From: a virus
Length of the DNA stretch: 23,366 nucleotides
Virus record (IMG/VR): IMGVR_UViG_3300035698_005333
Span: 1-23,366 of that record
Reading direction: 5' to 3' (one strand)
Shown here: piece by piece, positions 1-15,131 of the stretch
How the letters are laid out: each line of letters opens with the position of its first letter
Numbering within the stretch: the first letter of the stretch is position 1
The notes under the pieces: model-generated
The model's input: the letters and a program-made list of their open reading frames with translations, nothing else
The model's database searches: none
Told to the model about the DNA's origin: nothing
Program-made: the position numbers and the translations under genes

Positions 1-1900
1 TATATTTAAACACGACACCATAGTCGGTTCCTACTCCACCAATTTCTTTAAAAATAATTCTAGAATCTCCATTACCAGATGTAACTTCATTTCCTATAGT
101 TATTGTAGAATCTTGTCCAGATACACCATCTGCACCAACTTTTAAATTTTTACCTATATATACATCTCCGCCCGAAACAATTTCGCCAGCTACATCTAAA
201 CTACCGGGTGGTAATGAAGTATCAGGTTTCTTTCCAATACCTAAAATACTTTTTAATAAATTCTTCCATTTCCAAATTAAAGGTTGAGCAGAATTTAATG
301 TGTAATTAGTAGATGTTGTGCTAGTTATTCTATCTGTAATAACAACTCTAACTAGGAACGTTTTTGTAGAATCAAACCCAGCACTTCCTGTCAAGTCACC
401 ATCAATAGCATCTTCAAATGTGAACGATCCACTAGCGTTAGTATCTAAAGTTATAGCTTTATCACCACTCCAAGAACTTCCGTTATCTGAACTGTAATTA
501 TATATAGCTGTTACTATCGTGTTATCAACATCTGTATATGTATTAGCCCAATTAGTGTATGTACCTTCAAGAACCATAGTTGTTATTTCACTAACGTTAT
601 CTTCTCTCGATACTGTTAAATCAGTTATTACAGGTTTTTCATAACTTATAATAGTAGGTGAATATGATTTAGATGTTTCATTACCTCTACTATCAATAGC
701 TTTTATTGATAAGTTACTATTTATAATTCCGTTGATTGTTTCTTCAACTGTACCAGTCGATGCGTAAGATTTAGTTTTGGAAGTTAATCCTGAACTTTCA
801 AATTTATAAGACGTCATAGTAGATTGTTTAATAGCTATAGCTTTGTTTGCTTCTACAATCGTCATTTTAGCATTTGAATAACCTTTAATAATAACCATAT
901 CAGAAGATGTAACAGCTTTAGTAACTGCATTTGTATCTTCGTAAGTAAATGTTGTGAACGTAGGATTAGCGTTAACTATACTAAAAGTCTTTGTTTCAAT
1001 ATCGGTATATAGAGTTGATGTAGAATCTCTTGTGTCTATATAATATTCAACATCGGTTGAGTTTGAATTAGGTATATCATCCCTCATATCTATCAATTCT
1101 GCACTAGTCAAAACTAATGTATACGGTGATGTTATACTATCTCTTTGAGCTTTTAAAGCACCATTTATACCGATTCTTAATCTTATAGGGTTTCCGCTAG
1201 GATTACTGAATGAAATTGATGGTGTATCTTCATCATCAAAATTTACAACAGATGTTATTCTAGCTTGATCGGTAGTTGTTGCATATAATGTGCTACTAGT
1301 TGTGTATAACTGACTATCAGTTCTCTTAACTTTAATAGCGACGCTATATTGTGTTCCGGGGCTTAGTCCACTTATTGTAAAGCTCGATCCCGACGTTCCA
1401 ACGAATGATCCTCCATTTATAGAATATTCAATAGAATCACACGCAGCATCAGCTGACCAAGAAACATTTATCTTATCAAATCCACCTGAAACAGCAGTAA
1501 ATGATGTGATTGTTGCGTATCTTGGTATTGTTGCCAGCGATAAAGTGGTGTTAAGAGTGTAACTTCCATCACGACCAGCTCTAATGCTAGCAGAAGGTGG
1601 CGTACCATCAGAATTATGATTTATATATTTAGTGAAACTACCTAAAGTTGTTATACCTTCAGGAATTGTACCAAAATATGTGCTGAAATATTGAGTTTCG
1701 CCATATATTCTTATATTAGAACTCATTGTCCCTCGATAATTATTAGCTGAACCTACAGCTTGTAATTTTAATGTCGAATCAACTCGTGATCTATTATTAG
1801 AACTTTCAGTAGTTACAGTATAATCAACGTAGTAACGATAATCATTATAGTTAGGTGTGTTACTTCCTGACATTACATAATATGTATATAATCTTGACAT
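1..1900 (-). CDS. DUF859-like phage tail/receptor-binding structural protein with Fn3 domain (C-terminus beyond the window)
   Basis: The frame is open from an ATG at 1900 to the left edge, about 633 codons, with a GGAGGAG ribosome site at 1905-1911. The first ~120 residues are a beta-rich domain followed by the phrase TLSLATIPRYATI, which matches the 'TIPR' junction I associate with DUF859 siphophage tail proteins. Residues ~125-205 read as a fibronectin type III domain (conserved W in VSWSAD, SGLSPGTQYSVAIKV). Later beta-rich segments end in GIGKKPDTSLPPGSLDVAGE and a glycine-rich VYIGKNLKVG region, again resembling the end of DUF859 proteins. It follows another fibre gene by 12 bp, so it is probably part of the host-recognition apparatus. 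The family call rests on recalled sequence style; the reading frame itself is certain. Length cannot be judged because the 3' end is missing. Confidence 0.75.
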   Translation of the reverse strand, partial: MSRLYTYYVMSGSNTPNYNDYRYYVDYTVTTESSNNRSRVDSTLKLQAVGSANNYRGTMSSNIRIYGETQYFSTYFGTIPEGITTLGSFTKYINHNSDGTPPSASIRAGRDGSYTLNTTLSLATIPRYATITSFTAVSGGFDKINVSWSADAACDSIEYSINGGSFVGTSGSSFTISGLSPGTQYSVAIKVKRTDSQLYTTSSTLYATTTDQARITSVVNFDDEDTPSISFSNPSGNPIRLRIGINGALKAQRDSITSPYTLVLTSAELIDMRDDIPNSNSTDVEYYIDTRDSTSTLYTDIETKTFSIVNANPTFTTFTYEDTNAVTKAVTSSDMVIIKGYSNAKMTIVEANKAIAIKQSTMTSYKFESSGLTSKTKSYASTGTVEETINGIINSNLSIKAIDSRGNETSKSYSPTIISYEKPVITDLTVSREDNVSEITTMVLEGTYTNWANTYTDVDNTIVTAIYNYSSDNGSSWSGDKAITLDTNASGSFTFEDAIDGDLTGSAGFDSTKTFLVRVVITDRITSTTSTNYTLNSAQPLIWKWKNLLKSILGIGKKPDTSLPPGSLDVAGEIVSGGDVYIGKNLKVGADGVSGQDSTITIGNEVTSGNGDSRIIFKEIGGVGTDYGVVFKY

Positions 1901-1912
1901 CTAATCTCCTCC

Positions 1913-3970
1913 TTAATATTCTATGCAGTTTTTTTCATCACTGCCATTTACATAAGCTAATTCTAATATTGTGAACTCACCTATATCTATTTGTGTTGTA
2001 CCTGTTCCTTGAGCATCAACTAATGATATTTTATTAGTTATAATACCTTGGACATCAAATTTAGTTATTATATTTTCGTCTTTATCCGTTATATAATCTC
2101 CTGATTCATCGATTATATGTGTTAATTCATATTCTCCATCTTCGTTAGGTAATGATGATATTTCAATACCTTCATAAGATAATTTTATATTAGTTCCTAT
2201 CATTTCTCCGTGAGCTGGTTGCCATTTTAATGGGTTTGGAGAATAAATACCATCTTCTAATATAGCACCGTAGTTAAGCATTAAATCACTATATGCAAAA
2301 CCATCTCCGACAGCTTCTATTATTATACTTAATGAATCACTACTTGGTGTGATTAAGAAACTTTCAAATGTAAATTCACCTATAACAGTCGTTATCGTTT
2401 TTAATGTACTTATAACTCCGTTATCATTTATTTTAATAGTTACTGTATCTGTATTTTCATTTAAGTATTTAAGTGATAGAGTGTGATATGTATTTGATTT
2501 AACTCTTAAATTCCAGGTTATGTAACCAGCCGCTGAACATTTAACGGATGTATTAGATTCTGTATTTAATGATGTTTCAGAACTTTGTTCAGCTGTCCAA
2601 GTTCCTGTTCTTTCAAAAAATGGAGTGTTGGTAGCTCTAAGTATTAATAAACTGTTAGGTATTAAGTTAGCCCCACCTTTTTCAGCAAAAGAATAGTTAA
2701 CAGATGATATGTTCTGTGTTATTCTGCTCAATTTACTACCTTCTAAGTTTAAATCCATATCATTTACAACTTCTGTTAATTCGGTATTTATATCATCTAT
2801 TGATTGATTAACTAAAGAACTTTGGATATAACCATCTTTACGCTTCCAATGATCCCAATCAAACGTTTGGCTATTCGCTTCAGATACGACTATATCACCT
2901 ATATAAAAACCATCAGGAATAAGAGATGCGTCTAAATCTATTATCCATATATCATTAACGTGATATGTAGTTGGTTGAGTTGTGAATATGCTTTTTTTAC
3001 CATCTATTTGATCGAATATACTCGACGGAACATTCTCTGTTATCCAACTATACTCATCTAATTCGTTTTTATAATAAGAATATGTTGTGTCATTATTTAT
3101 ATCTCTCCATAAATCACCTATATGTAAATCTCTTACATCATCAGTAGACCACGGAATAGACGGATCATTATCGTTATACCATAGAGAAACAGTTGTATTT
3201 ACAAATTGAGTATAATTATTTTCTATAAAATCAACTAAATCTGTATCATCTGTATATTTTGATGCTAATTCCCAATCAGCAGCTTCATAAGCTCCTGTTG
3301 CTCTAGTAACTATACATATCTTTAAATCACCGGTAGCTCCACCTGACCATAAATCACCTATTGAATAAGGTGTCGAAGGTGTAGTTACGAATGTTTGTGC
3401 TTTTCCATCTGCTGTAGACTGAGCCGTTGCTGCGTTACTATAAGCGTCTATAGCTCGTTGATCTTCTATGATAACCCAAAGATTAGATAAACTATCATAT
3501 CTTTTTAATAATTTAACACTATCTTTATACCATAAATCTCCGTTATGTTTTTCTCTATCAGCTTCAACCCAAGTGTTTGGATCTGTTTCTTGAAAATAAG
3601 ATTCAATCTTACCATCTATTTGAAGTTGTAAAGTTCCTTTATCTTCTACATAAGTTTCGTCAACAAATGTGTTGAAAGCATCGAATGTTTCATCGGTTTT
3701 AGTAGAAACCTCAGTTACTCTACCATCTAAATCTTCGGTAGCTTCTATAAATACTTCGGTAAGTGTAAAGTCTGTTAAAACTGCATTTATTTGATCGTCT
3801 GTATATTCGTAAGCAGTTTGTAAAACTCCTCCTATTTCTGTATATAACGCTAATATATCATTATGATGTAAGTTGACGGCTGTTTCAACTTGAGTATTTG
3901 TTTGATTAAGATCTGCACCATATAATATTTGACCATCTTGATAATCTTTTTTTAAATTTAATAATGCCAT
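1913..3970 (-). CDS. Phage tail fibre / minor structural protein with GDLW repeats and a C-terminal carbohydrate-binding-like domain
   Basis: This 685-residue protein starts at an ATG preceded by AGGAGGTG. Residues ~8-43 form an anchor segment nearly identical to that of the broken fibre gene ending at 7702. Residues ~45-130 are helical and rich in T, E and D. Residues ~130-390 carry imperfect repeats centred on GDLWY, GDLWS, GDLWR and NDIWI, a motif common in minor tail proteins of Gram-positive phages. Residues ~455-600 (starting GGANLIPNS) form a jelly-roll-like stretch typical of carbohydrate-binding modules in fibres, and the last ~70 residues are a short beta-rich tail. It lies just after the endolysin gene and just before the DUF859-like gene. 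I infer a receptor-binding role; no enzymatic motif is seen. The fibre class is likely, but which domain binds the host is not determined. Confidence 0.75.
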   Translation of the reverse strand: MALLNLKKDYQDGQILYGADLNQTNTQVETAVNLHHNDILALYTEIGGVLQTAYEYTDDQINAVLTDFTLTEVFIEATEDLDGRVTEVSTKTDETFDAFNTFVDETYVEDKGTLQLQIDGKIESYFQETDPNTWVEADREKHNGDLWYKDSVKLLKRYDSLSNLWVIIEDQRAIDAYSNAATAQSTADGKAQTFVTTPSTPYSIGDLWSGGATGDLKICIVTRATGAYEAADWELASKYTDDTDLVDFIENNYTQFVNTTVSLWYNDNDPSIPWSTDDVRDLHIGDLWRDINNDTTYSYYKNELDEYSWITENVPSSIFDQIDGKKSIFTTQPTTYHVNDIWIIDLDASLIPDGFYIGDIVVSEANSQTFDWDHWKRKDGYIQSSLVNQSIDDINTELTEVVNDMDLNLEGSKLSRITQNISSVNYSFAEKGGANLIPNSLLILRATNTPFFERTGTWTAEQSSETSLNTESNTSVKCSAAGYITWNLRVKSNTYHTLSLKYLNENTDTVTIKINDNGVISTLKTITTVIGEFTFESFLITPSSDSLSIIIEAVGDGFAYSDLMLNYGAILEDGIYSPNPLKWQPAHGEMIGTNIKLSYEGIEISSLPNEDGEYELTHIIDESGDYITDKDENIITKFDVQGIITNKISLVDAQGTGTTQIDIGEFTILELAYVNGSDEKNCIEY
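3846..3943. repeat. Shared fibre 5' module, copy A (98 bp direct repeat, partner 7578-7675)
   Basis: This stretch matches 7578-7675 base for base except at one position (g at 3878 against a at 7610). It encodes the anchor segment near the N-terminus of two otherwise unrelated fibre genes. Identity stops abruptly at both ends: the first codons of the two genes are only partly similar, and nothing matches beyond the inner end. Confidence 0.95.
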
Positions 3971-3980
3971 AATTCACCTC

Positions 3981-4874
3981 CTATTTTTTAAAATATTCAA
4001 TAATTAATTTAATTAATTCTAATATTCTGTCCATTAATTTTTGTTTTCCATCTTCTACTGGTATATCTATTATCTTTTCTGTTTTAGGTATTATTTTTAA
4101 CCAACTTTTATCGCTAGCTACCCATAAGTTATCACCTATATTGTACCAAACGTAATCACCGTTTAATTCTGAACCTGAATAGTTATATAAACCTTTGTTA
4201 GCATAACCTAATTTTTCTCCATTAGGAGATTTTCTAACTCGAAGATTCTCTATAATTACATCTAATTGATCTACATATATATTTTTTTCAACAACTTCTC
4301 CAAAATACTTCGGTAAAGTAATAAAAATTAAATCACGATTGTTTTTAATAGTTGTGAAATCCTTGTCTATGTAGAAGCAATTTTCAGGCTTTTCTGCCTT
4401 AGCGCCGATATTCCAAGTTGATAATGAGTTCTTAGCCCATCCGTTATTACCTAACTTACTAAATAAACCGCGAGCGATTTCTATATGAAAGTGATTTCCT
4501 GTTGCTTGACCATCAGCTCCTTCGGTAAATAACGATTGTTTTCTTGTAAACTTTTGACCTACTTTCAAAGGTTTTAAAGTATTATCGTTAGGGTGAGTTA
4601 TCGAAATTGTTATATAATCTTCAAATGTAGGTGTTTTAACCTTAGTTGTTGATTGTAACCATATTGTATTAGTTCCACCATTTCCTACACCATATATACG
4701 TTTTATTTGAATCTCGTCACAAGGACAATAAAAATAGCTTTTGCTTGTATCTTTATCAGCTTCATCCCATGGATAACCTTGAGGTTTACCATTATATGAC
4801 TTAGCGTGAGAATAAGCTCCTAAGTAACTTTGGGTAATATTCATACATTTAGTTGGATATATTAAATAATTCAT
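3981..4874 (-). CDS. Endolysin: M23-family peptidoglycan endopeptidase with C-terminal SH3b domain
   Basis: The protein cuts peptide bridges in peptidoglycan at the end of infection. Numbered from the start used here (297 residues), it has H23 in AYSHAKSY, D37 in PWDEAD and the zinc-ligand pair H128-x-H130 in GNHFHIEIARG, the H...D and HxH signature of LytM/M23 peptidases. CPCDE and GVGNGGTNTIW are also typical of clostridial phage M23 endolysins. Residues ~205-262 (LRVRKSPNGEKLGY, WYNIGDNLWV) form a bacterial SH3 wall-binding domain, and an amphipathic, hydrophobic tail ends in EYFKK. An ATG three codons upstream (4883) touches the AAAGGAG site directly, so the ATG at 4874, about 9 nt downstream, is preferred. 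No signal peptide is seen, which fits release through a holin. The gene has its own promoter at 4896-4923. Confidence 0.9.
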   Translation of the reverse strand: MNYLIYPTKCMNITQSYLGAYSHAKSYNGKPQGYPWDEADKDTSKSYFYCPCDEIQIKRIYGVGNGGTNTIWLQSTTKVKTPTFEDYITISITHPNDNTLKPLKVGQKFTRKQSLFTEGADGQATGNHFHIEIARGLFSKLGNNGWAKNSLSTWNIGAKAEKPENCFYIDKDFTTIKNNRDLIFITLPKYFGEVVEKNIYVDQLDVIIENLRVRKSPNGEKLGYANKGLYNYSGSELNGDYVWYNIGDNLWVASDKSWLKIIPKTEKIIDIPVEDGKQKLMDRILELIKLIIEYFKK

Positions 4875-4895
4875 TGTACTCATCTCCTTTATTAT

Positions 4896-4923
4896 ATTAT
4901 ATCATATAAAAAAAAGATTACAA
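4896..4923 (-). promoter_or_regulatory. Extended -10 promoter for the endolysin gene, overlapping a terminator hairpin
   Basis: On the minus strand, TTGTAA (4918-4923) is followed after 16 nt by TGATATAAT (-10 at 4896-4901). The -35 lies inside the hairpin that follows the holin gene and the hairpin's T-tract fills the spacer. Confidence 0.65.
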
Positions 4924-4930
4924 TGTAATC
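4908..4930 (-). terminator. Rho-independent terminator after the holin candidate
   Basis: Read leftward, the stem GATTAC / GTAATC (4925-4930 with 4916-4921, 3-nt loop) is followed by eight T (4908-4915). It begins 5 nt after the upstream stop codon at 4936. T residues also precede the hairpin on the plus strand, so it could act in both directions. The short stem suggests partial termination. Confidence 0.6.
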
Positions 4931-4935
4931 AATTT

Positions 4936-5313
4936 TTAAATTTCGAAAGCGAACTGAACAACAGTTTCTATAAGAACTATAACAACGGCAACCATACCTA
5001 AAAGCTTTGCTTTGAAAGCTTCTAAAATACCAACTCTTTTAGTTGTCGATACGCATCGTTCTTCTATATTTTCTATTCTCAAATTTTGAGTTTCAACAAC
5101 ACTAATTCTTTTGTTTAAATTTTCTATGTTTTCATCTTGTTTATCATTTTTTTTTTCATATTTGACAAATGTAGAAATTATTTGTTCTATACCCGAAAGA
5201 GATTTCTCTATTTTTATATATCTCTCTGTATTTTTTTCTTCTCTTTTTTCGTTAGCTACTTCTATTTTTTCTAATCTTCTGTTTATTTCTTTATGTTCTT
5301 GATCACCATTCAT
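4936..5313 (-). CDS. Holin-like protein: coiled coil plus C-terminal transmembrane helix (XhlA-like)
   Basis: This 125-residue protein starts at an ATG with a well-placed GAGGAG site 8 nt upstream; an in-frame TTG at 5331 would leave the site inside the gene and is rejected. Residues ~1-100 are highly charged and heptad-rich, predicted to be coiled coil (EINRRLEKIEV, IENLNKRISVVE). Residues ~102-123 (AKLLGMVAVVIVLIETVVQF) form one hydrophobic helix at the C-terminus. Cytoplasmic coiled coil plus one membrane helix is the layout of XhlA-type hemolysin/holin accessory proteins, and it sits directly upstream of the endolysin. I infer a role in membrane permeabilisation or holin regulation. It is longer than the usual ~90-residue XhlA. 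No second classic holin is seen nearby. Confidence 0.6.
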   Translation of the reverse strand: MNGDQEHKEINRRLEKIEVANEKREEKNTERYIKIEKSLSGIEQIISTFVKYEKKNDKQDENIENLNKRISVVETQNLRIENIEERCVSTTKRVGILEAFKAKLLGMVAVVIVLIETVVQFAFEI

Positions 5314-5349
5314 ATCAGCCGCTCCTCTCAAGTTTTGTCTTCTAGTTAG

Positions 5350-5810: not shown

Positions 5811-7702
5811 TTAATTACCTCGCTTATAAATTTTAATAGTTGTTCCTACTTTAAATTGAGAACCCATATTATAAAAAATCATAGAAGTTATATTTGAAAT
5901 AACTGCTGAATTATTACCACTATAATTAGATAACCCTTGTGTTCCAGATATTACACTAGACATAACCGAGTTCCATTTAACTTTAGAATCATTTAAACTT
6001 ATTGTTCCATTTCCGAAAGCAATAGCTGAACTTCCTTTAAAAACTCCTATTACTGCGTAAGATTGACTTATTCTATATAACGCTGTCGGAGTTATATTAC
6101 CGTCTGTTGTTAAAGAAGCACTCATATAACTTCTAACGTGAGTGTAGTTTGCAGATATACCATTGAATCGTATACCTATTTCTACAGCACTTATGGTTTT
6201 TCCGTCTATAGTATAGTCGTATATTCCGCCATCCCCATTAATGTCTAAATTAGAAAAACTTACTGCTGATGTGTCAGCTGTTACTGTTACTCCAGCTACT
6301 AATCTACTGTACTTATCTTCTAATAACTCACCTTCTTCGCTTAATGCTTTAAAGTCTGTAATATCTTCTGCTAATACTAAGTCAGTTCCTGTTAAGTCTG
6401 CACTTGCAGTTATTCCTTTATTTGTTATTGTATTTGTACTATCAAAGTTATTATAAACGAACTCAGTACTTACTTTCGGCATTACTTCTTCAGATGATTT
6501 AGTACCAGCAGTTAATTCTAAAGCGTTCGCTTCTGAAATTGCTAAAGTTATTAATCTAACATCAATATAATTTCCTTTTGTATATTTTGCGTTATCGTAA
6601 CTTCTATAACCCATTACAAATTTAGTTATGGCGAATTGGTCACTACCTACATTTAATAAAGTTTGTTTAACTCCATCTACAAATATATCCCATTGACTTC
6701 CTGTCCATCTAAATGCTAATTTATATCTTTTCTTTTCTGTAAAAGTATTATTAGTTTTAGAAAAACTACCGTTGTCTAAACTCTGAATAATAAAAGCTCC
6801 ACTTGCGTCATATCTTACAATACCTCGTTCATCATCATCAAAACTTAATAATTCTTGCTGTATTCCAGCTTCTGTACCATTTCTATTTAAAATAAAATCA
6901 ATATATACAGTCCCTATTATTGTACTGGTAAACGTTCCGCTTACCGCTTTAGATGTTGTTCCGTTTAACTTTAATAAACTATCGTAAGATTCTTGGTATT
7001 TACTATTATCAATAGTATCATTTATTTCAGTTGCTGTTTTAGTTATATCTAAATCATCTAAATCTTGCACAGCACTATCCGCTAAGTCTAAACTTGCATT
7101 TATTGATGCGTTTAGTTTAGATTCATCTATACTTGACGCTTTAATACTTGCTGTTAAATCTTGTTCAGTTAACGTTAAATCAATTTCATCTGTATCAGTT
7201 ACCGTTATGGCTGCGTGTAGTGCGTCTTTTTGTGCCTGTGTGATGTGTTCGTAGTCATCACCTAGATTTATATCAGCTAAGTCATTATGGCTAAAATCAC
7301 CAGCTACAGGAAGTATTTGGTCACCTGTATTTGTGCCACTTGTATTTCCAACTATAGTTTTTTCAGAATCGGTAAATTCGTTTGTATCTGCATTATTTTC
7401 GTATTGGGTTTTTATTTCTGCGTCAGTTTGATTTACCTCTGCTCCTGTTTCAATACCAGCTAATTTGGTTTTTTCTTCATACGTAGTATATTTATTAGTT
7501 ACACCTTCAGTTATATGAGTTGTTGTTAATTCAACTATTCCTACTTGACTGTTAACGCTAGAAATAGCGCCCTCACCAACGCTAATATATCATTATGATG
7601 TAAGTTGACAGCTGTTTCAACTTGAGTATTTGTTTGATTAAGATCTGCACCATATAATATTTGACCATCTTGATATGATTTATTCAAATTTAATTTCGGC
7701 AT
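5811..7702 (-). pseudogene. Lectin-like tail fibre gene interrupted by one 1-nt frameshift near 7577
   Basis: The gene starts at the ATG at 7702 (AGGAGG upstream) with MPKLNLNKSYQDGQILYGAD, the anchor shared with the fibre at 1913-3970. After HHNDILAL the frame runs into a UAG 12 codons later. The -1 frame continues at once as GEGAISSVNSQVGIVELTTT and stays open to 5811. Adding one G to the GG at 7576-7577 restores a 630-residue protein. After a linker of fibre-style repeats (VTNKYTTYEEKTKLAGIETGA), residues ~240-395 resemble a LamG/concanavalin-like domain (YKLAFRWTGSQWDIFVDGVK), and a C-terminal beta-rich head ends FKVGTTIKIYKRGN. The downstream frame has no plausible start: its first candidate, a GTG at 7070, lacks a ribosome site. 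It is either a real broken gene or a sequencing deletion; no slippery heptamer favours programmed shifting. Confidence 0.7.
7578..7675. repeat. Shared fibre 5' module, copy B (98 bp direct repeat, partner 3846-3943)
   Basis: Ninety-seven of 98 bases are identical to 3846-3943. The low-coordinate end of this copy (7578) is the point where the downstream reading frame of the fibre gene is lost, so a recombination junction may coincide with the frame break. Confidence 0.95.
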
Positions 7703-7703
7703 A

Positions 7704-10202
7704 TTAATCCTCCTTTACTTTTTTAAGTTTATATTCTATACCTATATCAGTAATTGAGAACGCCTTATCATTATCACCTAACGTTTCTTCACTTCCTTCA
7801 TATATATCATATAATTCAATAGATATACTTTTACCTTTTAATCCTATTTTAGACTTAATAGTTTGTGTTTTAATATTACCTAGTAGTGTTTCTCCTAAAA
7901 CCATTTCTCCTAATACAGCTCCTCTTTTTAAAGATAACTCTGCGTTAGAATTAATAATTTCTTCGTAGTATATATAATCGGTATCTGTATCAACTCTAAC
8001 ATAATAATTTTCAGGAGTTAATACTGCGACATCATCTATTTTAATAACTAAGTATAACGGTATTAATCCATCACCTTCATTAGTTCCTTTTATTCTAACA
8101 CTTTTATATTTCTTTTGGTTAGTAGGTGTTAAAGAAAAGTTTTTAACTGTCTTAAAATATGTGCTGTACGGATTACCATCATCTGTATATTCACTATCAG
8201 GTTCGAATATCATTATTTTCATATCTTTAGTATCATCAAGTGTCTTATTTATGATCTTACATATATTATAATCGTTTCCAAATTCGTTTTCAGCGAATAA
8301 CCCTGATAACGTAGATGTATAACCATCAACTTCGGTTAAGTTATATTGATATTTATAATAAGCGTCTAATACATAATTATATATTAATAACTCATCGCCC
8401 ATACTAAGAATATATTTATTTCCTTTAACTACTGAATTTATTGCGTTTTTTCTAGGATAATTATCAATTATGTCTAAATCTATAGGTATAATATTTTCTG
8501 TTCCCTCACCTGAATAACCTTGTTTTAATAAACAAAGACCGTTTTCAGATAGGAATATAATATTATTTTCTATTTGTTTAGCTGTATTTTTGTTTTTAAT
8601 ACCAACAAAGTCATTTAATGGATATAATCCATCAGAGTCACCAGCATAAGGAAAGTTACCTGATAATCTTTTAAATTCTTTCTCAGTTCCAACAGCGTGG
8701 AATTGTCTGAAATATTTAATCATCTTAACACTATCTTTAGAAGTATCTATAGCGTATAAATAATTGTAATTAGGAAAGTAGTAGAAGTTGTCAAATTCAC
8801 TCAAGAATATATAACCGTGTCCACCATATAATATTAATTGATTATTTATAATAGTGCAATATATCGAACTATTAACTATATCTTTTATTGTATCTATTTT
8901 ACCAATTTCTTTAGATTGTTGTGAAGTTGCTATGAAGTAACCGATATAATCTATACCAGTTCCTTTAGTTATTTTTATTTCGAAGTTACCCTCTAAATTA
9001 AATTCTGTTACAGTAAATATATTGGCTGTTAAACCTGTTCCATAACTACCTATCATATCAGTGTATGGGTTATCAGTTTCATCAATCACTCCATTATCAG
9101 GTCTATATTTCGGAGTAACGTTAGCTCCTGTACCTGTAGTTATAAGATGTATTTTAAATGGTTTATCATCAGTTGTTGTATATGTAGCTGGTATTTCTCT
9201 AGTTGGTTCATCATCATAAGTCATAAATATTCCTTTAATAGCGTCGACCGTTCCAGTTCCTGAATCAATCCACTCTAAAGGAGTTTCAGCAACTATGTTG
9301 AAACCTATGTTCGTAACTTCTATACCATTAGGCTTATAAGCATTAGTGTAATCAATTATTTCTAACTCACCATCTTGGATTTGAAATAAATTAAATCCAG
9401 TAGTGAAATATTTCTTATCATTATAATCTATTACATTTATTATTTGTTCATCATATAAACCAACATTTAAGAAATTGATCTTACTAGTAGCTGGAGTTGT
9501 TGTTATAGCTGTTGTTTTATCAACTATAACATCTAATGATAGTGTTAAATAAGGATTTAAAATTAAACTAGAAGCGTTTTCTAATGTCATTTTACATCTA
9601 ACATATTTAAACACGTTATATTCAACTGGGTTAAGATATGAACTAGCTAGTTCTTTTTGTAAATAGTAACCACTTAAAATAACAGTAAATTCTACTTCAC
9701 TATTTATATTCCATTGTAATAATTCTTCTTCAAAATCATTATAATCATTAATCATTTGGTCGTTTTCTATTTGTAAATAAGCAACTTTGTCATAAACAAC
9801 ATCAATATTAGCGGCTGTAGCTTCTGAATCTGTATAAACTATAGTATCTTTAAGCATTTTAAATATTTCTTTGTCTGCTTCTTGAGTATTATCTACAGTT
9901 CCATTCAATTTACCAGTCAACGGAGTTGTGAACGTTACATCTTCGTTTAATATATCAGTTATTGGAGTAGGGTCTGTTTTTAAATCATAAAACAACTTAA
10001 TTAATTCATTAAGTTTGTTATTTTTTAAACCTTTACGTTTAGTAACGACTCCTTCTTCTTTCATTTCATAATTAACAAGTTCTCTAAAAACATTATCTCT
10101 AAGAACTCCGTCATAAGATGAAGAATTATAACCTTTGTTAAAGTTATTTATTAAGTCATATTGTTTTCCTTTGATTCCCTTTAAAGGGTTTTTAACTGCC
10201 AT
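7704..10202 (-). CDS. Large short-tail structural protein, tail tubular B / nozzle-like
   Basis: This 832-residue protein has AAAGGTGG before its ATG and ends 1 bp before the next gene. Its opening, NFNKGYNSSSYDGVLRDN followed by an EEGVVTKRKG phrase, has the pattern 'few gaps, released start, ... parameter-rich region ... K R x G' seen at the start of T7 gp12-type nozzle and other podovirus tail proteins. The middle, FLSEFDNFYYFP and NNIIFLSENGLCLL, resembles the repeated blades of beta-propeller nozzle domains. The C-terminal ~150 residues are beta-rich. There is no enzyme motif, signal peptide or membrane segment. Sitting between the adaptor candidate and the fibres, it would close the short tail and anchor fibres. 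The assignment rests on position, size and local sequence style; a structural protein is nearly certain, the exact homolog is not. Confidence 0.6.
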   Translation of the reverse strand: MAVKNPLKGIKGKQYDLINNFNKGYNSSSYDGVLRDNVFRELVNYEMKEEGVVTKRKGLKNNKLNELIKLFYDLKTDPTPITDILNEDVTFTTPLTGKLNGTVDNTQEADKEIFKMLKDTIVYTDSEATAANIDVVYDKVAYLQIENDQMINDYNDFEEELLQWNINSEVEFTVILSGYYLQKELASSYLNPVEYNVFKYVRCKMTLENASSLILNPYLTLSLDVIVDKTTAITTTPATSKINFLNVGLYDEQIINVIDYNDKKYFTTGFNLFQIQDGELEIIDYTNAYKPNGIEVTNIGFNIVAETPLEWIDSGTGTVDAIKGIFMTYDDEPTREIPATYTTTDDKPFKIHLITTGTGANVTPKYRPDNGVIDETDNPYTDMIGSYGTGLTANIFTVTEFNLEGNFEIKITKGTGIDYIGYFIATSQQSKEIGKIDTIKDIVNSSIYCTIINNQLILYGGHGYIFLSEFDNFYYFPNYNYLYAIDTSKDSVKMIKYFRQFHAVGTEKEFKRLSGNFPYAGDSDGLYPLNDFVGIKNKNTAKQIENNIIFLSENGLCLLKQGYSGEGTENIIPIDLDIIDNYPRKNAINSVVKGNKYILSMGDELLIYNYVLDAYYKYQYNLTEVDGYTSTLSGLFAENEFGNDYNICKIINKTLDDTKDMKIMIFEPDSEYTDDGNPYSTYFKTVKNFSLTPTNQKKYKSVRIKGTNEGDGLIPLYLVIKIDDVAVLTPENYYVRVDTDTDYIYYEEIINSNAELSLKRGAVLGEMVLGETLLGNIKTQTIKSKIGLKGKSISIELYDIYEGSEETLGDNDKAFSITDIGIEYKLKKVKED

Positions 10203-10205
10203 ATT

Positions 10206-10631
10206 CTACCACCTTTGGAAAATTACAGCTCTTTCGCTAGGATCTATGTTAGCATATCTTGAAGATCCTCCAGCGTAACCTGTTTCTTCTCCACTTTCGT
10301 CTATAGTTACTATATCTTTTATACCTGTTTTCTTAAAATCAACTAAAGCGTTTAAGAATCTTTGGTAATGAAAATCTCTAGTATTGTCATTATCATCGTT
10401 AGCCATAATTGCGAATGCAAAATATGGGTCTAATAACCTTAACTGCCAATCATCAGAAACAGCGTTGTAATCAATACTGTCCAAGTTACCTGTGATAAAC
10501 TGAGGTAAGTTAGTACCTATTTTTGTGTTTAATTCAGCTATACAGTTGTTAGCAACACCTAAAATATTAATTTCACTAAGTGATTCATCTGTTATATAAT
10601 TTGAATTGTCCACTATATCTTTTAAATACAT
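10206..10631 (-). CDS. Head-tail adaptor / tail tubular A-like protein (candidate)
   Basis: This 141-residue, mainly helical protein ends 3 bp before the nozzle-like gene. An ATG three codons upstream (10640) abuts the AAAGGAG site, while the ATG at 10631 has proper 9-nt spacing and is preferred; the endolysin gene shows the same layout. The sequence YLKDIVDNSNYITDESLSEI, then LLDPYFAFAIMANDDND and FHYQRFLNALVDFKKTG, fits small helical connector (gp11/gatekeeper-like) proteins that sit below the portal. The C-terminus (SSRYANIDPSERAVIFQRW) is extended. The role is inferred from size, helical content and position. It has its own promoter (10654-10682) behind a terminator, so the tail genes form a separate transcription unit from the glycan cassette. 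Confidence 0.5.
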   Translation of the reverse strand: MYLKDIVDNSNYITDESLSEINILGVANNCIAELNTKIGTNLPQFITGNLDSIDYNAVSDDWQLRLLDPYFAFAIMANDDNDNTRDFHYQRFLNALVDFKKTGIKDIVTIDESGEETGYAGGSSRYANIDPSERAVIFQRW

Positions 10632-10653
10632 AAATATCATCTCCTTTATTCTA

Positions 10654-10682
10654 ATTATATCATATTTGTTATTAAATAAAAA
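10654..10682 (-). promoter_or_regulatory. Extended -10 promoter for the adaptor-nozzle-fibre unit
   Basis: TATGATATAAT lies on the minus strand with the -10 at 10654-10659. At 17-nt spacing the -35 position holds only TTTTTA (10677-10682), part of the preceding terminator's T-tract, so promoter strength probably depends on the TG extension. Confidence 0.55.
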
Positions 10683-10707
10683 GAACTTACCTTCCGGATA
10701 GTTCTTT
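10670..10707 (-). terminator. Terminator after the glycan cassette
   Basis: Read leftward, AAAGAACT (10700-10707) pairs with AGTTCTTT (10680-10687) around a 12-nt loop that can form an inner CC/GG pair with a GGAA tetraloop. TTTTTATTT follows. The LicD stop codon (10687-10689) lies within the hairpin. Confidence 0.65.
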
Positions 10708-11280
10708 CAAATACGTAGTTCTCTTTAAATAATTTATAGGGTGGTCATTTCTAGGTGTTTTCCAATCTCCGTATAGTCTTTTTAAAATTATTTCGCTATT
10801 GTTAGGTATATTAAATTCAATTCCGTTCAATTCACCTTTTTTAAAAGGAAAAAACTGCTCATAATTACCAAAGTTACCCCATTGACAAGTCCAATAATCA
10901 CCATTTTTATCTATCCACGATGTGAATAAATCAATAATTAAATCACCGCATTTAACGTGAGCTTGACCAAATGGATCAACTATTTCATCTAAACTGCCAA
11001 CTTCATAATTAATATCCCAATATTTAATCAACATATTCTCATCTTTTAACATATTATAAATGAATTTAGCCTCGTCTATAACGTGGTTAACGTCCCTGTA
11101 TGTACTTAAATAGCACACATCTATGTCATTGTCACCATCTATAAGTTTTTGTTCTCTAACAGCCCCTAAAAGACTCCCAAACTGCAGATGTATATCAAGT
11201 CCTTTGAATTTATCGGTGAATTTCTTCAAATCTTTAACTAATCCTAACTTTTTTTCTTCTGTTAATTCTTTAAATATCAT
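10687..11280 (-). CDS. LicD-family phosphotransferase (CDP-alcohol dependent transferase candidate)
   Basis: This 197-residue protein carries the LicD signature: FGSLLGAVREQ at residues 34-44 followed by DGDNDIDVCY (48-57), where the acidic residues bind metal as in nucleotidyltransferase folds. IIDLFTSW (115-122) supplies a further acidic position, and LYGDWKTP near 168-176 is the usual C-terminal LicD motif. LicD proteins move phosphocholine, and related fukutin-type enzymes move polyol phosphates, from CDP carriers to sugars. The start has GAGGGG 7 nt upstream, inside the end of the TagD-like gene, so the two are translationally linked. The neighbouring cytidylyltransferase would supply the CDP donor and the GT4 enzyme the sugar acceptor. 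The substrate is inferred from neighbours; choline or glycerol phosphate are both possible. It is shorter than typical LicD (~270 residues) but retains the core motifs. Confidence 0.8.
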   Translation of the reverse strand: MIFKELTEEKKLGLVKDLKKFTDKFKGLDIHLQFGSLLGAVREQKLIDGDNDIDVCYLSTYRDVNHVIDEAKFIYNMLKDENMLIKYWDINYEVGSLDEIVDPFGQAHVKCGDLIIDLFTSWIDKNGDYWTCQWGNFGNYEQFFPFKKGELNGIEFNIPNNSEIILKRLYGDWKTPRNDHPINYLKRTTYLKELSGR

Positions 11281-11283
11281 ATT

Positions 11284-11664
11284 TTAACCCCTCATCTTAG
11301 TCGAACTTATTTTCTTCGTTCTAGGTAAGAATTTAACTTCAACACCTAAATCGCTTCCTTCAAATGTTTTTTCATTCCAATCATCACCAACAAATATTAT
11401 CTCAGGTTTATATTTATTAATTAGTTCCTTTTTACCAAAATATAATGATTGAACATCTACTAAATCAACTGATTCTAATTCTTTTAAAGCGTCCATTCTC
11501 TCTTTTAGAGTGAATGTCGGTTTGTGACCTTTCTTTTTTTCAACATACTCATCATCAGAAGCACAAACAATCAATAAATCACAGTGTTTTTTAGCGTTTT
11601 TCATCAAATTTATATGCCCTATATGGGTATAATCGAATACACCAAACGTTATTCCCGTTATCAT
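11284..11664 (-). CDS. tagD: Cytidylyltransferase, TagD/TarD-like (glycerol-3-phosphate cytidylyltransferase type)
   Basis: At 126 residues it is close in length to cellular TagD (~129). It has the nucleotide-binding HxGH motif in GVFDYTHIGH (8-17), the RMDAL segment (56-60), GDDW at 93-96 and LPRTKKISSTKMR at 113-125, which together match TagD-type enzymes that make CDP-glycerol from CTP and glycerol-3-phosphate. The ATG overlaps the glycosyltransferase stop by 4 bp (ATGA) with no strong ribosome site, so it depends on translational coupling. CDP-glycerol normally feeds teichoic-acid synthesis; here it probably feeds the adjacent LicD-like transferase. Family is secure; the exact substrate (glycerol-3-P or another phospho-alcohol) is inferred, and the gene symbol is by similarity only. 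Confidence 0.85.
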   Translation of the reverse strand: MITGITFGVFDYTHIGHINLMKNAKKHCDLLIVCASDDEYVEKKKGHKPTFTLKERMDALKELESVDLVDVQSLYFGKKELINKYKPEIIFVGDDWNEKTFEGSDLGVEVKFLPRTKKISSTKMRG

Positions 11665-12767
11665 ACTACGAACTCACACCATCCTGTATCGATTAATTGT
11701 AATCCACGTTCTAATTTTTCATATCTATCTTTTTCGAACTTAGGATCCATATTTCTACCTTTTTGCTTATCTTTATAAAGAGCTACAGTTCTAACTAAAA
11801 CTCTTTCTCTTTCATTTATTTTCAAAATTGATAACCAGTCTTTTTCATCTGATTCTTCTACATATAAGAAGTTATTAGGTATTTCATTATATAATTTATC
11901 GAAATCTAAATTAGATAAACCCATATCTACTATAAATCCGTTAACGCCGTCATCTATTATTTCATAAGCAGCTGGATAATTAGTTAATATACAAGGAGTT
12001 CCTGCCTGCAGAGCTTCTCTAGGAGAATATGGCATTCCTTCAGTATTAGATAATTGAACTAGGTAATCAGCGTCGCGAACTTCTTGTGTTAAATCTAACT
12101 TAACGCCTTTAAACGTAACTTCTTCAAAGTAATTCATCTCTTTAATTATTTTTCTAGTATAATCATCATCTAAGTTATTACCATAAACATCCCAAGTGAA
12201 TTTCTTATGTTTTTTTCTTAATATTTCACACAGTCGTATCATTCTTTCAAATCCTTTTTCAGGACTTATTCTTGATAATGTTATTAATTTAAGAACATCT
12301 GTTTTTGTTTCTTTTTTAGATCTTTTGAACTTAATTTCGTTATCTAATAAGTTATAAATAACCGTACTTTTATGCCCATATTCTGTTTTTAAAGCCTCAG
12401 CAACGTTATTACCAACAGAAACGTGGTGTGTAACATTGTATCTTCTTTTATAATTAAAATAATTACTCATTTTGTATTGTGTTAAATCAGCGTGTGTTAT
12501 CTGTATATATTTTTTAGCTTTTATCTGAGTTTCTTTAATATCTCCCCACGATGTACTATATAAACAAATATCACCTTCTATTTCTCTACCATTATGTATA
12601 AAAACCGTAGCGTATTTTCTAACCTTATCCAAAGATTCTTTATCACCACCATCACATACAAACGTTATATCAAAATATTTACTCATTCTCTTACAAAAAT
12701 TAATATTAAATTTTTCAACTCCACCTATCTTGTTTTGAACAGCTGAATACATAATTAATTTCTTCAT
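11661..12767 (-). CDS. GT4-family glycosyltransferase (GT-B fold)
   Basis: This 368-residue protein has the N-terminal glycine-rich acceptor-side motif KIGGVEKFN (13-21). Its C-terminal donor half contains LITLSRISPEKGFERMI (161-177), FTWDVYGN (190-197) and the E-x7-E motif EGMPYSPREALQAGTP (243-258) that binds nucleotide-sugar donors in retaining GT4 enzymes. It would transfer a sugar to a glycan, lipid or protein acceptor in the cytoplasm; no membrane segment is seen. It is the first gene of a three-gene unit, with GAGGTG before its ATG and its own promoter-like sequence between it and the capsid-region terminator. Its position inside the virion-gene region suggests it decorates a virion protein or host wall glycans late in infection; the sequence cannot distinguish these. 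Confidence 0.85.
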   Translation of the reverse strand: MKKLIMYSAVQNKIGGVEKFNINFCKRMSKYFDITFVCDGGDKESLDKVRKYATVFIHNGREIEGDICLYSTSWGDIKETQIKAKKYIQITHADLTQYKMSNYFNYKRRYNVTHHVSVGNNVAEALKTEYGHKSTVIYNLLDNEIKFKRSKKETKTDVLKLITLSRISPEKGFERMIRLCEILRKKHKKFTWDVYGNNLDDDYTRKIIKEMNYFEEVTFKGVKLDLTQEVRDADYLVQLSNTEGMPYSPREALQAGTPCILTNYPAAYEIIDDGVNGFIVDMGLSNLDFDKLYNEIPNNFLYVEESDEKDWLSILKINERERVLVRTVALYKDKQKGRNMDPKFEKDRYEKLERGLQLIDTGWCEFVV

Positions 12768-12787: not shown

Positions 12788-12816
12788 ATTATAGCACAAA
12801 AAAAGGAATATTACTA
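12788..12816 (-). promoter_or_regulatory. Promoter candidate for the glycan cassette
   Basis: TGCTATAAT on the minus strand (-10 at 12788-12793) lies directly after the T-tract of the capsid-unit terminator. The 17-nt-spaced -35 (TAGTAA, 12811-12816) is poor and falls in the hairpin. The 5' leader would be only about 14 nt, so the call is tentative. Confidence 0.4.
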
Positions 12817-12821
12817 TTCCT
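12798..12821 (-). terminator. Rho-independent terminator of the scaffold-capsid unit
   Basis: Read leftward, AGGAATA (12815-12821) pairs with TATTCCT (12804-12810) over a 4-nt loop, followed by a run of T to 12798. It starts 3 nt after the stop codon of the 109-residue gene. Confidence 0.75.
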
Positions 12822-12824
12822 CTT

Positions 12825-13154
12825 TTAACCACCAATGTAGTCGCCAAGCTTGTTAACTTTTTTGTTAGCAAGACTGGCTTTTTTATTTATGCTAGATTCT
12901 GATTTTTGGTCAATCTTATTCTCGATAAATCTTTTGATTGCAGGTGATAATAAATATTCAGATCCGTCAAATATGATATTTACATTAACTCCTTGATACG
13001 TACTTCTAAATCCGTGAGGATATAGAGCTGAAAACGCTCTTAAAGCTTTGAATTTCTCTTTTTTAACAGACATTACTTTCTTACTTCCAGCTGCAGATTC
13101 TTTTTTGATTTGCGAGTCGGTTTTTTCACTATCTTTAAATACTTTTTTTCCCAT
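12825..13154 (-). CDS. Small basic protein downstream of the major capsid gene; function unknown
   Basis: This 109-residue protein has GGAAAGGATT before the ATG and follows the capsid gene by 30 bp in the same unit. The first ~35 residues are lysine- and serine-rich and probably disordered. The centre (YQGVNVNIIFDGSEYLLSPAIKRFIENKI, residues ~54-82) looks like a compact beta-beta-helix domain. The tail is again Lys/Ser-rich and ends GDYIGG. No named family is recognised. The phrase 'x-G-V-x-V-x-I-x-F-D-G' resembles small structural proteins I have seen in phage capsid regions, so a decoration, cement or DNA-contacting head protein is plausible. It is not obviously an enzyme. The gene boundary is secure because a terminator follows at once. 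Confidence 0.55.
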   Translation of the reverse strand: MGKKVFKDSEKTDSQIKKESAAGSKKVMSVKKEKFKALRAFSALYPHGFRSTYQGVNVNIIFDGSEYLLSPAIKRFIENKIDQKSESSINKKASLANKKVNKLGDYIGG

Positions 13155-13184
13155 TTTATAAATCCTTTCCGTTAATTAAGACTT

Positions 13185-14207
13185 TTATACAGAACCTTCA
13201 GTTTGGTCAGCGTAGAAATCTTCTCTAGTTATTGGATTAGTTACTGCGTGACTTAATACAGTTACAGCAGACTCATCTAATACTTTAGCTCCGAATCCCA
13301 TAGCGATCCATCCTAATGATGCTAATTGTCCTAAGTTATCTCCGATTTTTGGTCCGAAGTCCATTTTTTTCATTTCAATTCCAGCAGACTCTAAATCCAT
13401 AACAGCAAATGCGTCGTTTCCGATTACATAAGTATGGTAAATAACTACTGAAGTTGCGTTAGTTTCGATTACTGGATACTCGTAAGTTCTGATTCTTAAG
13501 TTATAAATATCAGTTCCTTCTAATGAACCTTTTACTATAGGCTTATTAGTGTTTCCAGGAATTAAATATCTATCTTTTAAATCTTCGTCATCGATTAGAT
13601 CTTCCATACCTTCAACTGGTACTAAACAAGCGTAGTTTCCACCAGCACTCATAAGTCCAACTCTACGGTTAGCTTTCATTGGAGTAGTAATTTTTCTTAA
13701 CTCATCTAAAGTTAAAATGTTAGTAACTTTTACTGAATCAACATCAGGATCAGTTGTTCCTGCGTCTACAACAAATGCAACACCAGCATCTTCTTCAATA
13801 GCATCTCTTACTATTAATTCAAATGTCTTAGCACCGTGTTCAGCTAAAGTTTCAGAGTAATCTTCCATAACTTTTTGTAAGTTATAAGTTTCTAATTGTC
13901 TAGTAACTTCGATATAAGCACCATAGAATCCGATTTCTCCTTCTATAGTAGTATATCCAACCTTCATACCTGTTGGGTTTACACCTTCAGTAAGTACGTG
14001 GCGATCAGTAGCAACTGGTAAAGGTTTTTGTAATTTCCACATAACCTTGTTAGTTCCTTGATTTCTTTTTACAGCTTGTTTCTTCCCGATTTTTTGTAAA
14101 ACATTATATTCTACTTTATCGTTCATCATTTTAAGCATTACTTTGTTTTCAACAGCTTCTCTGTCGAAAGCAGGAGTAGTTGTTCTTATAGTTGTTAACG
14201 TATTCAT
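13185..14207 (-). CDS. Major capsid protein, N4-gp56 family
   Basis: This 340-residue protein builds the head shell. The opening ~100 residues, including VEYNVLQKIGKKQAVKRNQG, VLTEGVNPTGMKVGYTTIEG and IGFYGAYIEVTRQLETY, follow the pattern of the N4-gp56 major capsid family (HK97-like fold): a 'LTEG.xP' loop, then a 'G.yGaYi.vt' strand. Later parts with DFGPKIGDNLGQLASLGW fit the family's C-terminal end. The length matches the usual 300-400 residues. It follows the scaffold gene by 29 bp, with GAAGTGAT 5 nt before the ATG, and precedes a small basic protein and a strong terminator. Codons here are visibly more GC-ending than in the flanking tail genes, as expected for the most highly expressed protein. 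Confidence 0.88.
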   Translation of the reverse strand: MNTLTTIRTTTPAFDREAVENKVMLKMMNDKVEYNVLQKIGKKQAVKRNQGTNKVMWKLQKPLPVATDRHVLTEGVNPTGMKVGYTTIEGEIGFYGAYIEVTRQLETYNLQKVMEDYSETLAEHGAKTFELIVRDAIEEDAGVAFVVDAGTTDPDVDSVKVTNILTLDELRKITTPMKANRRVGLMSAGGNYACLVPVEGMEDLIDDEDLKDRYLIPGNTNKPIVKGSLEGTDIYNLRIRTYEYPVIETNATSVVIYHTYVIGNDAFAVMDLESAGIEMKKMDFGPKIGDNLGQLASLGWIAMGFGAKVLDESAVTVLSHAVTNPITREDFYADQTEGSV

Positions 14208-14236
14208 AATATCACTTCTTTCTATATTAGATTATT

Positions 14237-15055
14237 TTAATCTTTACGTTTTAATTGGTTATAAAGTTTGGTAACTTCGTCGTCTACTTCTTCAGCAGCG
14301 ACTGATTTTTGTTCTAACGGAATTTCATTTTTGATTTTAACTTTTTTTTCAAGTTCCTTTTGCTTACTTATCTTTTTAGGTAAATAAGAGTTTAAAACTC
14401 GCTTCAAAGCTGGGGTAGTTAAAGATTGTAATTCTTGAACCTTTAATCCATCTCTAGCTAATTCTTCATCGATCGTTTTCAGATCGCTGTCAGAAAGCTT
14501 GTTGCTAGATACAAAATCACTAAGAGTGCTATCATAGACAGCTTGTTTTTCCGCTAAATCTTTTGATGTCAACTTATTTTCCAATTCTGATATTCTATTT
14601 TCTTGCTCTATTTGCATTTTAATTTCTTCTACTGTTCTACCTGATGATTTAGCTTCTTCTACAAGAAGTGCTTCTTCAGTTTTTGATAACAGTTCAGAAT
14701 AATCTTTGTGACCTAGCTTCATAGCAGCCTCATTGAATCTATCAATGTCAGAACCTTGACTTGAATTTTTATCTTCAAGTTCTTTAAGTTTAACTCTCAT
14801 TTCAGCAAATTTCTTATTAGACTTTGAATCTTCCTCTTCAACTTCTACAGTATCTTCCGTTTCTTCAGTATCAATTACCTCATCTTCAGTTTGAGTTTCC
14901 TCAATTTCTGTTTCCTCTTGAGTTTCCTCAATTTCTGTTTCCTCAGTTTCGACAGTTTCTACTTCTTCAACAATTTCCTCTGCTTCTGTAACATCTGTAT
15001 TTTCAGTTTCTTCAACTACAGTTTCGTTAAATAGGGTTGTGAAATCTTTTTCCAT
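14237..15055 (-). CDS. Scaffolding protein
   Basis: This 272-residue protein directly precedes the capsid gene. Residues ~8-75 are extremely acidic (repeating EETEIEETQ units and VETVETEE runs) and probably unstructured. Residues ~80-240 are helical with coiled-coil character (FAEMRVKLKELEDKN, ISELENKLTSKDLAEKQAVY), and the last 30 residues are lysine-rich before a mixed tail. Acidic disordered N-terminus, long helix and basic C-terminal part is the usual build of a head-assembly scaffold, which binds capsid subunits and is lost on maturation. No protease motif is seen. GAGGAGG lies 6 nt before the ATG and a strong promoter sits ~100 bp upstream, so scaffold and capsid are transcribed together. 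Confidence 0.75.
   Translation of the reverse strand: MEKDFTTLFNETVVEETENTDVTEAEEIVEEVETVETEETEIEETQEETEIEETQTEDEVIDTEETEDTVEVEEEDSKSNKKFAEMRVKLKELEDKNSSQGSDIDRFNEAAMKLGHKDYSELLSKTEEALLVEEAKSSGRTVEEIKMQIEQENRISELENKLTSKDLAEKQAVYDSTLSDFVSSNKLSDSDLKTIDEELARDGLKVQELQSLTTPALKRVLNSYLPKKISKQKELEKKVKIKNEIPLEQKSVAAEEVDDEVTKLYNQLKRKD
14891..14944. repeat. Perfect 27-bp tandem duplication in the scaffold gene
   Basis: Two adjacent identical 27-bp units (14891-14917 and 14918-14944) encode the nonapeptide EETEIEETQ twice. The unit is a multiple of three, so copy-number change would keep the frame. Confidence 0.95.
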
Positions 15056-15131
15056 ATTCTATCCTCCTCACTTTATTTTTTCCAAAATTAATATTTTTTC
15101 GGGCTTAATGGAAGCCGTGATATTATGGTGA

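Follow-up and report, generated by a model that had tools for sequence, protein, structure and literature searches.

Enzymes of the LicD/fukutin family transfer phospho-alcohols from CDP donors, as established for FKRP. In phages, a LicD with an IspD partner was first reported in 2021 by Benler, in the replication module of the 'Flandersviridae' gut phages, only part of which carry licD and ispD (PMC8008677). Virion glycosylation by phage enzymes is also already known: capsid and tail proteins are modified by phage-encoded glycosyltransferases, as in mycobacteriophages (Freeman 2023, cited in PMC12363180), and the available part of that source describes no LicD or CDP-alcohol step. We found no report in the open-access literature of a cassette combining a PF01467 nucleotidyltransferase, a LicD and a glycosyltransferase in virion gene blocks, of the pairing of the first two across lineages, or of joint transfer of the set.

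A cassette of this type was present in a 23,366-bp IMG/VR virus record, a fragment referred to here as the window (Table 1); the contigs compared with it were all metagenomic. It comprises a GT4 glycosyltransferase, a PF01467 nucleotidyltransferase (CyT, a predicted CDP-alcohol maker) and a LicD-family phosphotransferase. As in the 'Flandersviridae', the LicD gene lies beside a nucleotidyltransferase gene; however, the 'Flandersviridae' partner belongs to the IspD family and lies in the replication module, whereas the partner in the window is a PF01467 protein, accompanied by a glycosyltransferase and located among virion or packaging genes. The IspD-family partner could also be a CDP-alcohol (TarI-like) synthase. 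Compared with the mycobacteriophage system, in which capsid and tail acceptors are described, the target of the window cassette is only predicted.

Transcription of the window genes runs along the minus strand, beginning with the terminase, a P22-like portal, a probable scaffold, the major capsid protein and a 109-aa gene. These are followed by GT4, CyT, LicD, an adaptor-like gene, a nozzle-like gene, and the fibre and lysis genes. The cassette is therefore located between the capsid and adaptor genes, inside the virion block, as the first-pass annotation had proposed. The N4-gp56 phage context suggested at the same time had to be abandoned, since the capsid protein matched PF25209/PHROG 1357 and the portal was P22-like instead.

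The three genes were intact, with reading frames exactly as first annotated, and closely coupled: GT4 and CyT are joined by an ATGA stop-start overlap, CyT and LicD are separated by 3 bp, and the ribosome site of LicD lies within the end of CyT. The cassette is also preceded by a terminator-like structure and a promoter-like site, much as previously suggested: a hairpin with a U-tract closes the capsid unit and an extended -10 box opens the cassette. Terminators are annotated at the equivalent place in Paenibacillus phage API480. The sequence TGNTATAAT occurred six times in the window, each time shortly before a gene and in the orientation of the late genes; we consider these boxes as probable promoters because of their placement and not their number, the count of 6 versus 3.95 expected not being significant alone. 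No membrane segment was predicted in GT4, CyT or LicD (maximum KD19 of 0.74). Foreign base composition as a signal of import was ruled out, since the GC content of the cassette (28-31%) matches that of the phage (31%) and thus gives no sign of recent import.

Table 1. Features of the cassette and its flanks in the window, in order of transcription.
Feature	Position	Strand	Evidence
Major capsid protein (context)	13185..14207	-	PHROG 1357 3.8e-19; API480 MCP E 7e-12
109-aa gene 3' of the capsid gene (flank, outside the cassette)	12825..13154	-	API480 gene 9, E 4e-4, weak, single comparison
Terminator-like hairpin and U-tract after the 109-aa gene	12797..12826	-	Fold dG -12.4, z -3.0
Promoter-like extended -10 box TGCTATAAT preceding GT4, the first cassette gene	12788..12796	-	Motif placement
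GT4 glycosyltransferase, 368 aa	11661..12767	-	PF00534 1.1e-22; EX7E intact
ATGA stop-start overlap joining GT4 and CyT	11661..11664	-	Sequence
CyT, PF01467 nucleotidyltransferase, predicted CDP-alcohol maker, 126 aa	11284..11664	-	PF01467 3e-19; TagD 1coz 4.6e-15
AGGGG, LicD ribosome site within the end of CyT	11288..11292	-	Sequence
LicD-family phosphotransferase, 197 aa	10687..11280	-	PF04991 39.5 bits; DxDID
Promoter-like extended -10 box TGATATAAT between LicD and the adaptor gene	10654..10662	-	Motif placement
Head-tail adaptor-like gene (context, other flank)	10206..10640	-	API480 gene 10, E 1e-9
Tail nozzle-like 832-aa gene (context)	7704..10202	-	API480 gene 11, E 2e-10

Profile searches confirmed the three family assignments, each protein scoring above the cut-off of its Pfam family with its catalytic motifs intact. 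GT4 matched PF00534 with 80.9 bits (cut-off of 26.4) and retained R166/K171 and the EX7E glutamates E243 and E251. Its relatives in the PDB include Gtf1/TarM. The GT4 core and the EX7E motif are common to TarM, Gtf1, SdgB and the window protein; however, the known enzymes are about 500 aa long versus 368 aa, and the likeness is weak and limited to the GT4 core. Moreover, scores of 65 and 50.7 bits against the SdgA/SdgB NCBIfam models were under their exception cut-off of 800 bits. The predicted structure of GT4 (pLDDT 46) was too poor to serve as a search query. Among phages, the GT4 search retrieved only Butyrivibrio phage Arawn-type enzymes, which lie outside cassettes, and two fecal phage fragments.

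CyT matched PF01467 with 70 bits (cut-off of 21). Its HxGH, GDDW and RTxxISST motifs were intact in the alignment and, like its fold family, are shared with TagD/TarD; the GDDW and RTxxISST positions resembled those of TagD, unlike those of E. coli HldE. Of the TagD-like cytidylyltransferase first annotated here, the PF01467 family was retained and the TagD type was not: CyT scored 76.0 bits against TIGR01518 (TagD/TarD; equivalog cut-off of 165.4) and 76.6 bits against TIGR02199 (HldE domain II; equivalog cut-off of 181.5), and it fell in a separate clade of the tree (support 92/87), with TagD, TarD and Treponema sequences placed elsewhere. A TagD orthologue was ruled out by both the cut-off and the tree.

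LicD exceeded the gathering cut-off of PF04991 (22.6 bits) and contained the GSLLGxxR...DxDID motif and a C-terminal YGDWKTP. It was 43% identical to the LicD of locus L003, and residues G35, L37, L38, G39, R42, D50, D52, I53, D54, Y170, W173 and P176 were invariant in six phage and two bacterial LicDs. The best PDB match of its structural model, which is of modest confidence (pLDDT 59), was FKRP (E 8e-4), structures of which filled the top 11 rows, with TM scores of 0.40-0.48; the matched FKRP structures were solved with CMP and CDP-ribitol. The window protein has in common with bacterial LicD transferases and human FKRP/fukutin the LicD domain, the DxD motif, a predicted CDP-alcohol donor and, tentatively, the fold; it differs from them in being about 200 aa long and phage-borne, with a short, divergent C-terminal half.

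To find related loci in viruses, we used a two-sequence CyT alignment as a query, which identified 47 viral loci where single-protein viral scans with the major capsid protein, CyT or GT4 had given no matches. A LicD profile, built from the window and L003 sequences only, placed LicD beside CyT in L049, L051, L053, L055, L056 and L062. After removal of near-copies, every member of the window's CyT clade adjoined a LicD (5 out of 5), versus 2 of the 24 other CyTs (Fisher p = 1.8e-4), a count in which some flanks were short and a weak LicD-like match beside L059 was left out. The reciprocal LicD scan added L099, L100, L101/L102, L103 and L106, each with a CyT at most 740 bp away, and in most pairs CyT and LicD overlap or touch. 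A control of 490 kb of terminase-found viral DNA contained neither CyT nor LicD; likewise, no LicD was found among the relatives identified by terminase (37 loci), and a tblastn search with LicD against 50,697 phage records gave no match at the sensitivity used. Plasmid matches were remote. The lineages were counted as the window, L003, the L049 group, L053, L099, L051/L055/L056, L062 and L101; L049, L100, L103 and L106 were treated as one lineage because they are related at the DNA level. This recurrence in unrelated phages strengthens the earlier view of one coupled route of CDP-donor synthesis, phospho-alcohol transfer and sugar transfer, and the constancy of the CyT partner is as expected of a gene that supplies the donor. 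Two of these loci had unusual CyT surroundings. In L101, a 96-kb virus contig, a CyT is directly followed by a 635-aa LicD-GT2 fusion (13170-15077), the GT2 domain of which also has some similarity to the Pfam model for the stem domain of FKRP. In L100, CyT lies within a 386-aa frame (5876-7036), the cysteine-rich N-terminal part of which may be a homing-endonuclease-like insertion.

L053 and L099 carry a trio of CyT, LicD and a GT2/GT4 protein, the GT4 part of which is 36-38% identical to the window GT4 (38% over 282 aa for L053). Inside this trio, a stretch of 2,677 bp is 73% identical between the two DNAs, despite terminases and portals that show no similarity and belong to different PHROGs. 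The trio therefore seems to travel as a unit. In three lineages (the window, L003 and L049/L100/L103/L106), the cassette comes directly after the capsid gene; in L051-L056 and L099, it precedes the terminase and is not capsid-adjacent. Cassettes of L003 and the L049 group lie among further sugar genes (epimerases, GT9, UPF0047, nucleotide-sugar dehydrogenase), and those of L053 and L099 are minimal, with no kinase and no phosphonate gene. The UPF0047 (YjbQ-like) genes (L003:6823-7221 and L049:3949-4353) belong to capsid-linked sugar blocks of phages that are unrelated to each other.

The closest known phages were Paenibacillus API480 and SV21 (31% for the terminase and 26% for the portal). The API480 homologues of the capsid, small, adaptor and nozzle genes are arranged as in the window, the match of the small gene being weak, and the equivalent gap contains nothing. 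The cassette is thus present in one phage and absent from the other at one defined point. Absence from related phages, which the first-pass annotation had regarded, together with frame damage, as evidence against the cassette, is literally true of API480, the nearest isolate; however, the cassette was found in unrelated phages, which speaks against an artefact and shows that the module is accessory and mobile. A passenger, or decaying host genes without phage function, would also be missing from the nearest known phages, but we consider this explanation very improbable: the three frames and their motifs are intact, the cassette has its own promoter-like site, pairing and order are kept in unrelated phages, and the trio was transferred jointly.

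The sequence itself shows the three enzyme families with intact motifs, the coupling of the genes, the insertion site, the conserved CyT-LicD pairing and the joint transfer of the trio, whereas we infer the identity of the donor, the order of the reactions and a virion target. CyT would make a CDP-alcohol from CTP and an alcohol phosphate of the host, for which glycerol 3-phosphate is the simplest candidate, and LicD would move the phospho-alcohol from this donor to a sugar. GT4 would attach this sugar to an acceptor, or extend a chain on it. The acceptor would most likely be a recently synthesized virion protein, and the modification would alter how the particle is charged at its surface, adsorbs or is recognized. 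Since the minimal cassettes contain no kinase, the alcohol phosphate would come from host metabolism, and a housekeeping metabolite is expected.

The cassette had initially been suggested to add glycerol phosphate or choline phosphate. CDP-glycerol would be the simplest donor, but with CyT outside the TagD clade and HldE-II scoring equally, glycerol is a candidate only. Phosphocholine was rejected as the first choice and is less likely, since no choline kinase or LicC-type gene was found in the window or in the minimal cassettes. It is also quite possible, if somewhat improbable, that CyT makes another donor (CDP-ethanolamine, CDP-choline, a CMP-phosphonate or a nucleotide-activated heptose) and that the group transferred is not glycerol phosphate; this can be combined with either a virion or a host surface target. 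The equal scores of TIGR01518 and TIGR02199 point in this direction, as do the best NCBIfam model for LicD, the cholinephosphotransferase Mf1 (47.9 bits, under its cut-off), whose donors are CDP-choline and CDP-ethanolamine (PMC11982090), and a distant bacterial LicD (L008) located in a phosphonate-synthesis-like locus. However, the minimal cassettes contain neither a kinase nor a phosphonate gene, and the GDDW and RTxxISST positions are TagD-like. Moreover, LicD-paired relatives of CyT scored higher with TIGR01518 than with HldE-II, and the reverse was observed for L058 and L059, which have no LicD over the cut-off. The L008 locus (93-5347), on a Sumerlaeota contig, ends with the LicD fragment and begins with a protein that has a CyT-like N-terminus; this LicD may possibly use a CMP-phosphonate.

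Regarding the target, we place a virion protein ahead of the host surface as most likely, on the circumstantial grounds of the late position of the cassette, its adjacency to the capsid gene in three lineages and the lack of predicted membrane segments; the mycobacteriophage enzymes provide a precedent. The same chemistry could instead be directed late at teichoic acid or wall polysaccharide of the host surface, where it would block superinfection or re-adsorption of progeny to debris, a possibility that we consider a serious, if less likely, rival. Among the solved relatives of GT4 is TarM, a wall teichoic acid glycosyltransferase, and modification of teichoic acid as a defence against superinfection has been proposed for the 'Flandersviridae' LicD (PMC8008677). 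LicD enzymes such as Mf1 also act on lipid-linked glycans (PMC11982090), variable EPA loci of Enterococcus contain licD and a cytidylyltransferase (PMC11269942), and LicD-related wall loci are reported to bear on Enterococcus phage sensitivity. Nevertheless, expression would be late for exclusion, the genes occupy a late, capsid-adjacent position in three lineages, and no flippase, membrane protein or lysogeny gene was seen with the cassette in the window. On balance, and by little, we favor a late-expressed, mobile accessory glycan-phosphate cassette whose phospho-alcohol-bearing sugar is most likely put on a virion protein.

More tentatively, a mobile, self-contained CyT-LicD-glycosyltransferase cassette may be common to unrelated tailed phages and place a phosphodiester-bearing glycan on their own capsids. 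It might then be the viral equivalent of glycan phosphorylation of the teichoic-acid or dystroglycan type and, in some phages, part of a long, giant-virus-like, capsid-linked glycan locus. Should the virion be the target, phages from several lineages would produce particles that bear a phosphate-linked alcohol, with effects on charge, adsorption, clearance and the binding of antibodies; should it be the host wall, the cassette would represent a widespread late superinfection barrier. With either target, the conserved pairing offers a small, testable unit of three enzymes predicted to be soluble, and it suggests which enzymes act as partners of those phage LicDs whose action on teichoic acid has so far been a proposal.

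Two other features were observed elsewhere in the window. A gene for a calcineurin-like metallophosphoesterase (PF00149; 19583-20293) lies upstream of the packaging genes. In addition, a 144-nt direct repeat (88%; 7578-7721 and 3846-3989) duplicates the beginning of the 685-aa tail gene at the beginning of the fibre gene that follows the 832-aa gene; the reading frame is broken at about 7578, where this repeat ends, which suggests a recombination scar or an assembly join.
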